Shown here one piece after another: positions 13,325 to 21,132 of a stretch of 37,068 nt of DNA (its first letter is position 1; each line of letters opens with the position of its first letter). The DNA comes from Promethearchaeota archaeon (lineage in GTDB: Archaea; Asgardarchaeota; Lokiarchaeia; Sigyniarchaeales; SOKP01), in assembly GCA_004524535.1 (NCBI GenBank), contig SDNY01000027.1:1-37068 (forward strand). Reading direction: 5' to 3'. The notes under the pieces are model-generated. The model did no database searches and was not told the origin of the DNA. It saw only the letters and a list, made by a program, of their open reading frames with translations. Both the position numbers and the translations under genes were made by a program.

Positions 13325-13684
13325 ATGATAGATGAAATTAATAAATGGTTTATTTTAGCAGAAAGAGATTTTATTAGCGCAAAAAAAAATTTCAAAAAGA
13401 GAATTTATTATGTTTCTGCTTTTCTCTGTCAACAATCTATTGAAAAAGCTTTAAAAGCACTTTACATCAAAAAATATCAAAAATTATTAAAAATTCATGA
13501 TTTAGTTAAATTAGCAAAAAAGGTTGGAGCAGATATTAATATTTTAGATATCTGTGCTGAATTAAATCCTATATACATCGAAACGAGATACCCTGATGTC
13601 CCAACATCCTATAATAAAGTGGATCTTAAAAAGTTATTAAAAGATACTGAAAAGGTGTTAATATGGATAAAGACGAACTTATAA
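13325..13684 (+). CDS. HEPN-domain protein (COG2250 type)
   Basis: This 119-residue helical HEPN protein reads WFILAERDFISAKKNF, then AFLCQQSIEKALKALYI, HDLVKLAKKVG and ETRYPDVP. These are the usual landmarks of the HEPN family that pairs with small nucleotidyltransferases. The RX4-6H ribonuclease motif of HepT toxins is not obvious, so RNase activity is uncertain. It overlaps the nucleotidyltransferase gene by 22 bases, which indicates a co-translated two-gene module, most likely toxin-antitoxin. The start is ATG at 13325. Confidence 0.87.
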   Translation: MIDEINKWFILAERDFISAKKNFKKRIYYVSAFLCQQSIEKALKALYIKKYQKLLKIHDLVKLAKKVGADINILDICAELNPIYIETRYPDVPTSYNKVDLKKLLKDTEKVLIWIKTNL

Positions 13685-13986
13685 TCAAATTGAAAGAGTT
13701 TAAGCAACAGGTTATTAAAAAGTATGGAGTAAAAAAGATTATTTTATTCGGGAGCTATTCCAAAGATAGCGCAAATGAACAAAGTGATGTAGACTTAATT
13801 ATTGTAGGCGATTTTGAAGGTAAAGGAAATCTACACAGGGCACCAATTTTTTATAAAGAATGGCATTTAGTTCAAAATATTGATTTGCCAGTGGATATTA
13901 TTTGTTATACATCAGAGGAATTTGATAAACTTAAAAATCAAATAACTATTGTAAAAGAAGCTATAGAAGAAGGAATGGAAATTTAA
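13663..13986 (+). CDS. Minimal nucleotidyltransferase (MNT), HEPN partner
   Basis: This 107-residue DNA-polymerase-beta-fold nucleotidyltransferase has the active-site motif LFGSYSKDSANEQSDVDLII (GS-x-D-x-D), then DLPVDIICYTSEEFD, which supplies the third acidic residue. In related MntA-HepT pairs the nucleotidyltransferase neutralises its HEPN partner by adding AMP to it. Overlap with the HEPN gene makes this a two-gene operon. T-rich sequence follows it (13998-14056) and probably ends transcription. Confidence 0.9.
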   Translation: MDKDELIIKLKEFKQQVIKKYGVKKIILFGSYSKDSANEQSDVDLIIVGDFEGKGNLHRAPIFYKEWHLVQNIDLPVDIICYTSEEFDKLKNQITIVKEAIEEGMEI

Positions 13987-17123: not shown

Positions 17124-17570
17124 TTACTTCTTATTTTGATTTGATAATTGATCTTTAAATTTGGAAAAAATCTGTTTTTTGAAAAGATTGAAATCACTCA
17201 GATTTTCTTGGAGAATCTCATAAATTATTTCATTATTGATTTCCATATATAAATGACCTCTTAGATTACGAAATTTTGTCATTTTAATGAGTTTTTCTTT
17301 TAATTCATCATCAATTATATCTATTTTTGCTAAATCAATAAAGATCTCACTGTATGTTTCAGGCTTTCCATTTTTATTATTTGAGAGAATATGGTTCCCA
17401 ATATCAATACATATATTTATACATGTTTCTAAAGCCCGTTGAGCACTTAAATAAAAGAGATAATTGGAAAGAAAATCATCTTTAGATTTTTTCTTTAATT
17501 CTTCTAAGATTTCAATTAATTCATCTATTTTTTTGAATCTATTCAAAATGATATTAGGATCAATAATCAT
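17124..17570 (-). CDS. hepT: HepT-like HEPN toxin
   Basis: This 148-residue HEPN (DUF86) protein has the conserved CINICIDIGNHILS and PETYSEIFIDL segments and the active motif RNLRGHLY. That motif is the RX4HXY pattern of HepT ribonuclease toxins, in which the Tyr is AMPylated by MntA to silence the enzyme. Its start overlaps the end of the nucleotidyltransferase gene by 11 bases, the usual MntA-HepT arrangement. It lies opposite in orientation to the HEPN/MNT module at 13.3-14.0 kb and belongs to a different HEPN subfamily, so it is not a simple duplicate. Confidence 0.88.
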   Translation of the reverse strand: MIIDPNIILNRFKKIDELIEILEELKKKSKDDFLSNYLFYLSAQRALETCINICIDIGNHILSNNKNGKPETYSEIFIDLAKIDIIDDELKEKLIKMTKFRNLRGHLYMEINNEIIYEILQENLSDFNLFKKQIFSKFKDQLSNQNKK

Positions 17571-18003
17571 CCTCTAATACCTCTTTTATTGAAATTTCAT
17601 CGTACATATCAAGCATCGGTTTAATTTCTTGATACATATATAATACTTTTAACTCAAATTCATGAGTAATTGTTCTATTCTTTTGAAATATAATTCTACC
17701 ATTCTTTATGACATGAAATAAAAATCGAGGTGTGGTTTTGTTAATTATCCTTAAATCAACATTAATCTTGTAGTTAAAATGACTTTCAATCTTTAGACTT
17801 AAATCAGCAAAATATAAGTGAGGTGGTTTAAAATCTTCTTTTAAAATAATACCAATATCAATATCGCTATATTCTGTTTGAGTCCCTTTAGCATAGGAAC
17901 CATATAAATATGCTATTTGAATTTCTTCATGGTTTTTAAATAAAGTTTCAATAACACGTTCTAATTCTTTTATTTGTACCATTTGGTATTTAATTCTCTT
18001 CAT
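17560..18003 (-). CDS. mntA: MntA-like nucleotidyltransferase antitoxin
   Basis: This 147-residue nucleotidyltransferase has YLYGSYAKGTQTEYSDIDIG (GSYxxGx(6)SDxD) and a downstream VDLRIIN carrying the third carboxylate. It is expected to AMPylate the HepT partner encoded immediately downstream with an 11-base overlap. The first ATG gives MKRIKYQMVQ; an internal Met at residue 8 is an alternative start. Its promoter must lie in the 18004-18070 gap, right beside the DUF166 fossil. Confidence 0.86.
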   Translation of the reverse strand: MKRIKYQMVQIKELERVIETLFKNHEEIQIAYLYGSYAKGTQTEYSDIDIGIILKEDFKPPHLYFADLSLKIESHFNYKINVDLRIINKTTPRFLFHVIKNGRIIFQKNRTITHEFELKVLYMYQEIKPMLDMYDEISIKEVLEDDY

Positions 18004-18069: not shown

Positions 18070-18180
18070 TTATTTGATAACATATGCTAGTTTTTGTCCT
18101 TCTTCTTCAAGATTCAATTCCCTTCGGATGGCATTTCTAACCAAATACCCTCCAATATGGAGAATAGAATCTTTTAGAAT
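18070..18180 (-). pseudogene. Displaced 3' end of a DUF166 gene
   Basis: The minus strand encodes 36 codons plus a stop that match the C-terminus of the intact gene at 20233-21132: LKDSILHxGGYLVRNAIRRE, then a diverged LxLEE...Y(V/I)IK end. The match stops sharply at about 18180. Beyond it (from 18181) there is no similarity. The fragment lies on the same strand as the intact gene and downstream of it, with the nuclease gene between. This is the arrangement expected if an insertion carried its own replacement 3' end into the gene. Confidence 0.8.
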
Positions 18181-18392
18181 TGTAGATTAACAATGACCTA
18201 AGTATAGTCTTGAATTTTTTATTGAAATTATTAAATTGGTAGAGAATCTACATTTAAATTTAAGATTTTTTAAATTTAAATTATAGAATTTTTAGAATGT
18301 TTAAATAAAAACGAATTCATCATATTGTAGGAAAAAATTTCTTTATAAATCAATTGAAAAACTTGAGTTCGTAAAAAACAAACATAATTAAA
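18181..18392. promoter_or_regulatory. Repeat-rich leader of the zinc-finger nuclease gene
   Basis: Directly at the edge of the DUF166 fossil lies TGTAGATT (18181-18188), with its inverted copy AATCTACA at 18245-18252. A perfect 12-bp hairpin of ATTTAAATTTAA follows (18252-18281, 6-base loop). A TATA box TTTATAAA (about 18342-18349) is flanked by near-inverted ACGAATTCA (18311-18319) and TGAGTTCGT (18364-18372). The first pair could be an element end, and the pair around the TATA box could be an autoregulatory operator. Confidence 0.45.
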
Positions 18393-20225
18393 ATGTCAGA
18401 AAAACGGAAATGGATTGGAAAATGTCGTGTTGAAGAAGGATTAGATGATGAACCTGTTGTTAAGGATTTTATTAACAATTATTGCGATGATGTTGAGGTT
18501 ATTAGAAAAAATAATAGACAAGAATTAGAGATGACAAAATTTAAACCTATAACTTTTTCTAAAGCAGTAATTGAATATATTAAAAAGAGAATTAGAGTAT
18601 CGAATAACGAATTCGATAAATATCTTGATTACATGAAAGATCATGGTATAAACAATGATAAACTCCTTAAAATAATATTTTCCGAAAAGAATTTAGATGA
18701 ACTTCTGAGAAAAGCTAATATCAAAAGTGGTAAACAAAATCGACTTCAAGCAAAAAGATGTATGACAGTAATTTCCCTTGCACTTCTTAAATGTTCTAAT
18801 TATAATGACCTTCGAAATTCTTTACATGCATTAACTGGTTTATCTAATAGATATATTTATGATGTAATTAAAAAATGTATTCCCATTTTGAATAGTATAA
18901 ATCCTAGCGTAAAAATTAATAGATGGCTACCTCAAAAACCATTTGAATACAATCTCATATTAATTAATAAAATGATAAAAAAAAGAGGTTGGAAATTATT
19001 ATTTCCCAAAACTCAAGAAGAATTTGATAAGTTAAGAAAAAAACATAATCGTGAACCAGCTAGAATTCCCCTATATGTAGAATGCGATAGAGATCATAAA
19101 TTTTCTACTAATGCTTTCAATTTACAGCGAAGGGAAAAAGGTTGTAGAAAATGTGCAGATGATGATAAAATTAAATATAATATGGATACAATAAAAAAAT
19201 TGGTTAATCAGAAAGATTGGATTTTGAAATATCCTAAAAATCAAGAGCAACTTGATTTACTTGTAGAAAAACTCAATTGTGCTCCAAATGCAGCTCCTCT
19301 AAGTATCGAGTGTAGCTTAGGTCACCCAATTTTAACAAAAGCACATAGATTAAACCAAAAATTATTAAAGGATACAGAAGGCTGTTTAAAGTGTAGTCAT
19401 ATTAAAAAAAGGAAATATAATATAAATGTAGTGAATAAAATGATTAGAGATAGAGGTGCTATTCTTATTTATCCAAAAACTCAAGAACATTATAATGCTT
19501 TAAAAAAATCTCATCAGTGTAAACCCTTTAAAGTTCCTCTTAAAATAGAATGTATAAGAGGTCATATTTTTAATAGTAATGCTTCTTTAATACAACAGAA
19601 CCATTGGTGTCCTTATTGCAAACAAATTAAATCTGCTATAGGTAGACTTACTCATATCATTTTTGAATATCTTACTATTAAATATCTCCTATTAAAAGGT
19701 TGTCAAGCTGATTTCGAACAACAGATAAATCTTAATACAAAACATCAGGTTGATATTCTAGTAAAAAGAGATAGGAATTTTATGAAACATATTGAAAAAT
19801 TTCAATCTATTATTTCGATTCCTAATATTATTAGAGAAATAGCGATTGATTTTACTTTTTCTCTTGAAAAAAAGTTCATTTTATCAAAGTTTTATAAAAA
19901 TTATCAAAATAAAAATAGGTTTCTAATTGTTGTGTTGCTAGATGGAGATATTAAAAAATGTAGTGTAGAACAAATTATTCAATTTTCTTCTAATATTAAT
20001 TTTAAAAAATATATCAAAATATTATCTTTTAATGAGTTCCTCGAATTTTTATGTCTATTACAAAGAATAATCGATTGGAGATTAATTTCCAAAGACGAGA
20101 AGGGAATACTTTCGGAATTTAATAATATTTATAACCTCGCCATTGATGCTATTGATTCAGAAGAAGAGCTCAAAAAATTAATTAAAATTGGTGAAAAATT
20201 TAAAAATAAAATTGGGAATTTGTAA
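18393..20225 (+). CDS. Zinc-finger-repeat protein with PD-(D/E)XK-like domain, putative homing-type nuclease
   Basis: This 610-residue protein has a helical N-terminal part that may bind DNA (about 50-180). Three repeats of about 75 residues follow, each with a W/I-x-L-x-(Y/F)PK-x-QE segment and a CX3H...CX2C zinc site (Cys231/His235/Cys251/Cys254, Cys307/His311/Cys331/Cys334 and Cys387/His391/Cys406/Cys409). The C-terminal domain carries QINLNTKHQVDILV (Asp454) and IREIAIDFTF (Glu482, Asp486). This spacing recalls a divergent PD-(D/E)XK or Vsr-like nuclease core. The gene sits between an intact DUF166 gene and a copy of that gene's 3' end, converging with it 7 bases from its stop. A self-spreading endonuclease gene is the best guess. 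I recognise no named family, and the nuclease call is tentative. Confidence 0.7.
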   Translation: MSEKRKWIGKCRVEEGLDDEPVVKDFINNYCDDVEVIRKNNRQELEMTKFKPITFSKAVIEYIKKRIRVSNNEFDKYLDYMKDHGINNDKLLKIIFSEKNLDELLRKANIKSGKQNRLQAKRCMTVISLALLKCSNYNDLRNSLHALTGLSNRYIYDVIKKCIPILNSINPSVKINRWLPQKPFEYNLILINKMIKKRGWKLLFPKTQEEFDKLRKKHNREPARIPLYVECDRDHKFSTNAFNLQRREKGCRKCADDDKIKYNMDTIKKLVNQKDWILKYPKNQEQLDLLVEKLNCAPNAAPLSIECSLGHPILTKAHRLNQKLLKDTEGCLKCSHIKKRKYNINVVNKMIRDRGAILIYPKTQEHYNALKKSHQCKPFKVPLKIECIRGHIFNSNASLIQQNHWCPYCKQIKSAIGRLTHIIFEYLTIKYLLLKGCQADFEQQINLNTKHQVDILVKRDRNFMKHIEKFQSIISIPNIIREIAIDFTFSLEKKFILSKFYKNYQNKNRFLIVVLLDGDIKKCSVEQIIQFSSNINFKKYIKILSFNEFLEFLCLLQRIIDWRLISKDEKGILSEFNNIYNLAIDAIDSEEELKKLIKIGEKFKNKIGNL

Positions 20226-20232
20226 ATATTAT

Positions 20233-21132
20233 TTATTTTATAATATATGTTAGTCTCTCACCTATTTGCTCTTCCAATCCAAGTTCTCTTCTTATTGCAT
20301 TTCTCACTAAATAACCTCCTACATGGAGTATTGAGTCTTTTAGCATACTGTCAGCCTGCATGCTAGCATTACAAGGATAAGCGTGATGTGCTTTACTAAT
20401 TTTTTCATTAAGAGATAAATCACCATTTTCGATGTATTTTGCTCTTAACTGTTGTAATATGTAATATGTAGAACCACATGGAGCACTTTGAAGAACACAT
20501 GCGTCTACAATTGATTTTCCATCCTTACTTAATAAAAATGATACTATGGGTACTCCAATTTGAAAATGTTCTATAAAGTCATGAATATAATCATGCTTAT
20601 TAGTGAGGTGGAATCCAATTTTATTATATTCGTTATAATCTTTACTCAATGAACAAAATGGTTTTGGAAATGCCGCTTGAATACCATATTTTTCAAAATC
20701 TTCAAGCACTTGTACTTGCAATCCCGCAGGAACCCATTTAGGATCTTCTATAGGAACTATTACCGCTTTTACTCCTTTGTCTTTTAAATAAAAGGGCAGT
20801 TCTGCTAATAAATCTGGATGAATTCCTACAACTATTAAAAAATCGACAGGTGGCAAATTTTTAGGTAAATATTTTTCTGAATCTTCTACAAAATCAGGAA
20901 GACCTTCACCAATTTTCTCATAAAAATAAATTGAGCTTGCATAACCTTTTAAATTTTCGCGACATTTATCGCATTTAATATTCATTTCCAAATCTTCACA
21001 TGCTTTACAAAAATCCTCAGAATTTATCAAATTTCCTACAAATTTCGCGGTTAGCATCTCGGTATCTGGATCTACTCCATACAAAAACCCTAAAGTGTAT
21101 TTTTTATTATTTTTACTCATCACGGGATACAT
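20233..21132 (-). CDS. DUF166 family protein
   Basis: This 299-residue cytosolic protein of the archaeal DUF166 family has unknown function. It has many conserved cysteines: CKAC and CDKC near residues 42-58, then QSAPCGSTYYILQQL and HHAYPCNASM, which suggest metal or cluster binding. The C-terminal 37 codons (20233-20346) have a diverged second copy at 18070-18180, so this gene's present 3' end may have been supplied by the inserted element. The start is the ATG at 21132, giving MYPVMSK. The Met at residue 5 is an alternative, since a TATA-like ATATAATTT abuts the first ATG. Confidence 0.82.
   Translation of the reverse strand: MYPVMSKNNKKYTLGFLYGVDPDTEMLTAKFVGNLINSEDFCKACEDLEMNIKCDKCRENLKGYASSIYFYEKIGEGLPDFVEDSEKYLPKNLPPVDFLIVVGIHPDLLAELPFYLKDKGVKAVIVPIEDPKWVPAGLQVQVLEDFEKYGIQAAFPKPFCSLSKDYNEYNKIGFHLTNKHDYIHDFIEHFQIGVPIVSFLLSKDGKSIVDACVLQSAPCGSTYYILQQLRAKYIENGDLSLNEKISKAHHAYPCNASMQADSMLKDSILHVGGYLVRNAIRRELGLEEQIGERLTYIIK

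Follow-up and report, generated by a model that had tools for sequence, protein, structure and literature searches.

A nuclease-like gene between the foreign and the displaced native 3' end of a DUF166 gene in a Lokiarchaeia genome: a probable homing element carrying a replacement gene end

How did a DUF166 gene come to be followed by a nuclease-like gene and then by a second, diverged copy of its own 3' end? The question is raised by a stretch of 37,068 nucleotides (hereafter the window, contig C78 of a 3.66-Mb genome), for which the original prediction, made from the letters alone, had proposed an element that supplies a replacement 3' end and keeps the host gene whole. The features discussed below are the following, the complete DUF166 gene being referred to as the resident gene and its separated end as the relic.

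17124 to 18003, minus strand: toxin-antitoxin-type pair (HepT/MNT), adjoining the relic; Pfam HepT-like 4e-26 and Polbeta/NTP_transf_2; absent between L015 8052 and 8064
18070 to 18184, minus strand: relic, the original native DUF166 3' end (codons ~261-299 and stop), separated from its gene; 75% nucleotide identity to the resident tail, 97/111 nt to the genome G002
18185 to 18392, plus strand: AT-rich, ORF-free spacer 5' of the nuclease gene, missing in G002
18393 to 20225, plus strand: ORF, 610-aa zinc-finger/PD-(D/E)XK nuclease-like gene, probable homing endonuclease; relatives in 22/65 family genomes
18948 to 19619, plus strand: three zinc-binding repeats (residues ~186-409), likely DNA-binding; repeated C..H..CxxC, DUF4379 in relatives, alignment
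19623 to 19982, plus strand: C-terminal probable PD-(D/E)XK catalytic domain; AlphaFold2, Foldseek, conservation
20233 to 20518, minus strand: foreign 3' segment of resident DUF166 (codons ~205-299), replacement end plus ~165 nt of apparently co-converted coding sequence; 211/286 nt to G002
20519 to 21132, minus strand: native 5' part of DUF166 (PF02593), codons 1 to ~205; Pfam DUF166 E 1.9e-47, 95% nucleotide identity to G002

A foreign end in use and a native end displaced

As had been predicted, the last ~37-38 codons of DUF166 are repeated in a diverged form on the same strand, with the nuclease-like gene in between: 18070-18180 and 20233-20346 agree at 86/115 nt (75%, E = 2e-18), in one orientation and both on the minus strand. 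The relic translates as ILKDSILHIGGYLVRNAIRRELNLEEEGQKLAYVIK and the resident tail as MLKDSILHVGGYLVRNAIRRELGLEEQIGERLTYIIK, each followed by a stop, and a search of the whole genome with the DUF166 protein found the relic independently (E = 7.5e-11). The abrupt stop of similarity that had been noticed earlier lies at ~18184, corresponding to codon ~261 of the 299 codons of DUF166. Between the tail copies there is one large ORF (18393-20225, plus strand, 610 aa), which is convergent with DUF166 (minus strand), the ends of the two genes being ~8 bp apart. No terminal inverted repeats, exact flanking direct repeats or transposase, and hence no transposon or IS features of these kinds, were found at the window element.

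The closest relatives of the window genome are Lokiarchaeota MAGs. In the same-genus Lokiarchaeota genome G002 (isolate LW60_4) the gene order is kept, with 85-95% nucleotide identity on both flanks, and an intact 299-aa DUF166 (88% aa identity) stands there without the nuclease; DUF166 is a single gene both in G002 and in G003. This empty site supports the proposal of an element, presumably a mobile one, whose replacement 3' end keeps the host gene whole. The expectation that an uninterrupted DUF166 of a relative would resemble the sequence beyond the nuclease more than the resident tail was borne out as well, the tail of G002 being identical at 97/111 nt to the relic versus 83/114 nt to the resident tail. 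At the sites where the two tails differ, G002 agrees with the relic at 22 and with the resident tail at 6 (p = 0.004). Identity of the relic to G002 is 98% over its final ~54 nt and only 84% over its first 45 nt, and the lower value counts against the reading of the locus as a homing element.

The resident gene matches G002 at 581/614 nt (95%) as far as codon ~205 and then at only 211/286 nt (74%) up to the stop, with the change point at codon 205 (delta logL 37, Fisher p ~1e-17). The comparison of the relic and of this change point with G002 therefore shows that the native end has been displaced and that a foreign end is in use. The diverged part of the resident gene, beginning near codon 205 (~20518), exceeds the repeat, so that of the unit originally proposed the imported nuclease stands and its extent does not: the imported segment comprises, along with the nuclease, the sequence from 20233 to ~20518, beyond the repeated 37 codons. 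The foreign tract thus begins ~165 bp before the junction, on the gene side, as would be expected if flanking sequence was co-converted in the repair of a double-strand break.

No donor of the foreign end was found among 50 family genes (best tail match 73% nt), and this, together with the reliance on MAG data, is the main weakness of the homing reading; all the genomes compared are metagenome-assembled, and independent assemblies share the same anatomy. Fragments of DUF166 lying at the ends of contigs (G039, G046, G057, G058 and contig C220 of G016) were dismissed as assembly breaks. Near another contig end (L017:6501-7176, contig C63 of G000), a second DUF166 5' fragment (codons ~4-91) is fused to a duplicated methyltransferase piece from 2 kb upstream, possibly through contamination or misassembly. 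As to the surroundings of the relic, nucleotidyltransferase/HEPN-type pairs at 17124-18003 and 13325-13986 of the window are absent from the otherwise colinear G002, their MNT/HepT identity resting on the first pair; the HepT/MNT pair adjoining the relic is probably a second insertion relative to G002 and a separate event.

The 610-aa protein and its relatives

The 610-aa protein itself has no Pfam match. Its translation contains three C..H..CxxC repeats, and DUF4379, a probable treble clef zinc finger, is matched by 4 of the 13 aligned family members (best E 3.9e-19); judging by these motifs, the zinc-binding repeats are likely to bind DNA. The C-terminal domain, modelled with AlphaFold2 at pLDDT 84, retrieved N.BspD6I, MspJI, the R2 endonuclease, Can2, Cap4 and EcoO109I in Foldseek searches at E values of 0.007-0.1, which are weak (none below 0.001), with probability up to 0.9. 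The PD-(D/E)XK fold recurs among many of these matches, and H421, E425, E442, D454, D486, K499, Q505 and R509 are invariant or near-invariant in the family. The modelled domain is thus probably of the PD-(D/E)XK type. We infer that the 610-aa protein is an active endonuclease cutting at the junction and that the element still moves by some route of transfer between cells.

Outside its own family the nuclease had no relatives at E <= 1e-6 across 228 phylum genomes, and a degenerate pattern gave no confirmed occurrence in GenBank phages, IMG/VR viral contigs or GTDB contigs; the lack of a viral or phage carrier in the first two of these collections counts against the homing reading. Some relatives (L081, L090, L094 and L099) share the zinc repeats and have another C-terminal domain, Vsr/EDxHD-like by sequence inspection, suggesting that catalytic domains may be swapped.

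Recurrence at other genes and short insertions at the junctions

The original prediction had named, as another possible refutation, the nuclease turning up elsewhere without a gene tail, and the outcome is mixed: about 20 of the 23 relatives of the window nuclease have no detectable flanking relic, but two others clearly have a relic of another gene on one side and its complete copy on the other. One of these, in G005 (L087), is flanked by a complete AIR-synthase-like gene and by the 5' half of that gene, left as a relic, at a site that is empty in two same-genus genomes. Most 60-nt windows of the relic agree with G009 at 92-100%, while the resident gene is ~58% identical to the native gene in its 5' half and ~95% native in the remainder. 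The foreign 5' half (~98% to that of G005) is also found in G006 (L178, contig C46), together with the intron described below and a native promoter, and with neither nuclease nor relic in the available part of the contig; its sequence makes this allele likely to be the state after loss of the element. The second relative, in G047 (L084), separates a complete thiolase gene from a relic of its 5' end, and in G057 a relative 84% identical in DNA occurs at the same thiolase gene with no relic. Flank duplications at L011, L093 and L013 were discounted, being AT-rich, of low complexity or inside an ORF, and those at L152 and L154 (29-35% aa identity) have the appearance of tandem paralogues and not of relics.

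The same anatomy is found with an unrelated, HNH-like nuclease. At L074 of G016, codons 1-129 of DUF166 form a 5' fragment that is separated from a complete DUF166 by the gene of a 664-aa protein, which shows HNH-like motifs by inspection, has no Pfam match and has relatives in 22/65 family genomes. HNH-like nuclease loci are accompanied by a 5' end relic of a zinc alcohol dehydrogenase in G023 (L155), where the relic is 98.4% identical to the native gene of G019 and the resident 5' end 72%, and by a 5' end relic of a ChlI-type ATPase in G047 (L162). In G000 (L165) a helicase 3' end relic is found, in reversed order and with the nuclease broken. In 6/7 loci of both nuclease families the complete gene is on the 3' side of the nuclease and the relic on its 5' side, and it is from this near-constant order that the moving unit would be best described as a nuclease plus a replacement gene end. 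With a convergent target, as in the window, the 3' end is replaced, and with a co-directional target the 5' end. In the two further cases with close relatives (G005 and G023) the relic is native, for the most part at 98-100%, and the resident 5' end foreign (~58-72%), so that the outcome is that of the window. Flanking relics accompany 7 of ~40 nuclease loci versus 6 of 133 other ORFs, two of those six resembling real relics, and the excess at nuclease loci is suggestive only. Two loci with the nuclease absent were also seen, namely a partial DUF166 duplicate around an ABC transporter (L073:3338-6757, G022) and a duplicated 5' end of an S-adenosylmethionine synthetase gene flanking a transporter (L167:1471-4846, G001).

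At some genes a short insertion accompanies the junction. The resident AIR-synthase-like copies of G005 and G006 carry 30 nt with an in-frame stop exactly at the relic end; the insertion occurs at the same codon in eight genomes of four genera (L087:7719-7785; L178, L209, L211, L212, L213, L207, L208) and is 29 nt long in G013 and G014, where the frame is broken too. All eight fit one bulge-helix-bulge motif, in which a central helix of 4 bp, ACGU/(A,G)CGU, is combined with bulges of 3 nt, an intron stem of 9 bp and an exon-exon helix; pairing is present in 98.3% of cells versus 29-58% with the partners slid, compensatory changes occur at two pairs, and cuts after the second base of each bulge give back the native codons (H-V-T-R). 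The zinc alcohol dehydrogenase (L155:6260-6400) has a 29-nt insertion with a perfect motif at the codon of the relic end, and its predicted splice product is restored to R-C-G-I-C-G-S-D. Thiolase genes of one genus contain up to four ORF-breaking insertions of 29-32 nt per genome at six or more sites, most of them with the motif (L082:5339-6683, L084:7857-9137, L227-L246), and gene callers would list such genes as broken. We predict from these motifs that the 29-32 nt insertions which fit them are bulge-helix-bulge mRNA introns removed by splicing. Translational bypass of the 30-nt insertions was ranked lower, because the canonical bulge-helix-bulge cut gives native codons and some thiolase sites are without identical take-off and landing codons. 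The ChlI-type ATPase gene (L162:5560-5720) is interrupted after GSMNPE, away from the relic junction, by 30-odd nt with a strong hairpin, which is possibly another short intron.

Introns in archaeal protein-coding genes are known in cbf5, being 16-44 nt long with no nuclease attached (PMC2738675), and many tRNA introns have been described in other Asgard genomes (PMC11291895). The 29-30 nt introns near some of the nucleases reported here fit the same motif as those of cbf5; however, the latter are nuclease-free (PMC2738675), the former are predicted, and the window DUF166 has none, its resident copy carrying no 29-30 nt insertion and its presumed cut site being merely different in sequence. 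A wider proposal, on which our judgement is evenly balanced, is that Lokiarchaea have a general gene-end-replacing homing system, in which free-standing nucleases of unrelated families would travel together with one end of the gene they target. At certain genes a bulge-helix-bulge mRNA intron of 29-30 nt, positioned precisely where the nuclease cuts, would travel as well and so be spread by a nuclease lying outside it. If true, this would be a route to intron gain in archaeal protein genes and would account for genes with several short introns.

Explanations of the locus and comparison with known systems

The observations to be explained are the empty site, the foreign resident end, the native relic, the abrupt boundary and the recurrence at other genes with two nuclease families. 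With considerable confidence we assume that the window contains a free-standing homing-endonuclease element which brings along a substitute for one end of the gene it targets. The nuclease would cut uninvaded DUF166 alleles near codon 261, in the conserved LKDSILHxGGYL stretch, and the break would be repaired from a donor allele with the order DUF166, nuclease, old tail. The block copied in would consist of the diverged 3' end of the donor and the nuclease gene, with ~165 bp of upstream coding sequence co-converted, and the recipient's own 3' end would be stranded beyond the nuclease as the relic. DUF166 would remain full length and would resist re-cutting, because the presumed cut site has a different sequence in the new end.

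Alternatively, circular DNA with the nuclease and a DUF166 fragment could have been integrated by ordinary homologous recombination in a Campbell-type single crossover, the nuclease playing no part, and the similar partial-gene duplications at the two nuclease-free loci of G022 and G001 favour such an event. A single crossover, however, is expected to place the switch between host and foreign sequence inside the duplicated stretch, at codon 261 or later, whereas it was observed at codon ~205 in the resident copy; moreover, the relic is host-like towards its end, and two unrelated nuclease families share the anatomy in a near-constant orientation, so we consider this origin unlikely. Even less credible is the remnant of an old tandem DUF166 duplication, between whose copies the nuclease was inserted or exposed. 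Tandem remnants are common and both tails have one orientation, but G002 and G003 have a single DUF166, of the two tails it is the relic that is closer to the related gene, and a resident body with 95% and an end with 74% identity to G002 would not be expected from a duplication. The out-of-place sequence is the resident gene, only from codon ~205, and not the relic, which disfavours the duplication that the original prediction had itself named as its possible refutation.

The adjoining HepT/MNT pair, and the frequent occurrence of PD-(D/E)XK folds among defence nucleases, would suit a gene for defence or restriction that belongs to a toxin-antitoxin/defence island and landed at the gene end by chance, the foreign DUF166 end being the product of ordinary gene conversion. 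Yet PADLOC gave no match for either nuclease family and the replacement of gene ends recurs at unrelated genes, and we give this coincidence about as little credence as the tandem duplication. Least probable of all is an integrase-driven element with its site inside DUF166. Integrative elements such as e14 and phage 21 at icd and SXT at prfC do insert within a coding gene and complete it with an end of their own, and the outcome for the target gene is identical. They use an integrase and att core repeats, however, and the window element has neither: its single ORF has no integrase domain, the ends share no identical core repeat (75% over 115 nt), and the foreign tract reaches past the junction.

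To our knowledge, the replacement of gene ends by a homing nuclease, which is the explanation preferred here, is known solely from fungal mitochondria; no description of a gene-end-replacing endonuclease in archaea was found in the literature searched, the coverage of which was partial. The free-standing homing endonucleases of T-even phages (Seg and Mob), known for intronless and collaborative homing, resemble the window element in the intron-free nuclease gene near its target, the break repair and the co-conversion of flanks, but the account of them mentions no target gene whose own end was left behind as a relic (PMC2988022).

The closest likeness is to the mobile endonuclease ORFs (mORFs) of fungal mitochondria, found inserted at atp6 of Allomyces and at atp6, atp9, cox2 and nad3 of Glomus, where a foreign C-terminus is joined in frame and the native C-terminus is displaced, the native one being 91-98% and the foreign one 64-81% identical to a close relative (PMC3630166). 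In the window, too, an endonuclease-like ORF lies between a complete gene and the displaced native end, and the displaced end is the one resembling the close relative while the in-frame end is foreign. The mORFs encode LAGLIDADG or GIY-YIG enzymes, whereas the window nuclease belongs to no Pfam family and its predicted fold points to PD-(D/E)XK; they are confined to mitochondrial DNA and to 3' ends, whereas an archaeal chromosome, both 3' and 5' ends, and zinc-finger PD-(D/E)XK-like as well as HNH-like enzymes are involved here. By this comparison the window element appears mORF-like and, together with the loci at other genes, would extend the mORF pattern to an archaeal chromosome, to both gene ends and to other nuclease families. 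That several conserved Lokiarchaeota genes are affected, at 5' as well as 3' ends and by nucleases of two unrelated families, suggests that the strategy is general and not an organelle oddity, and such transfer of parts of genes would produce hybrid genes that confuse gene trees.
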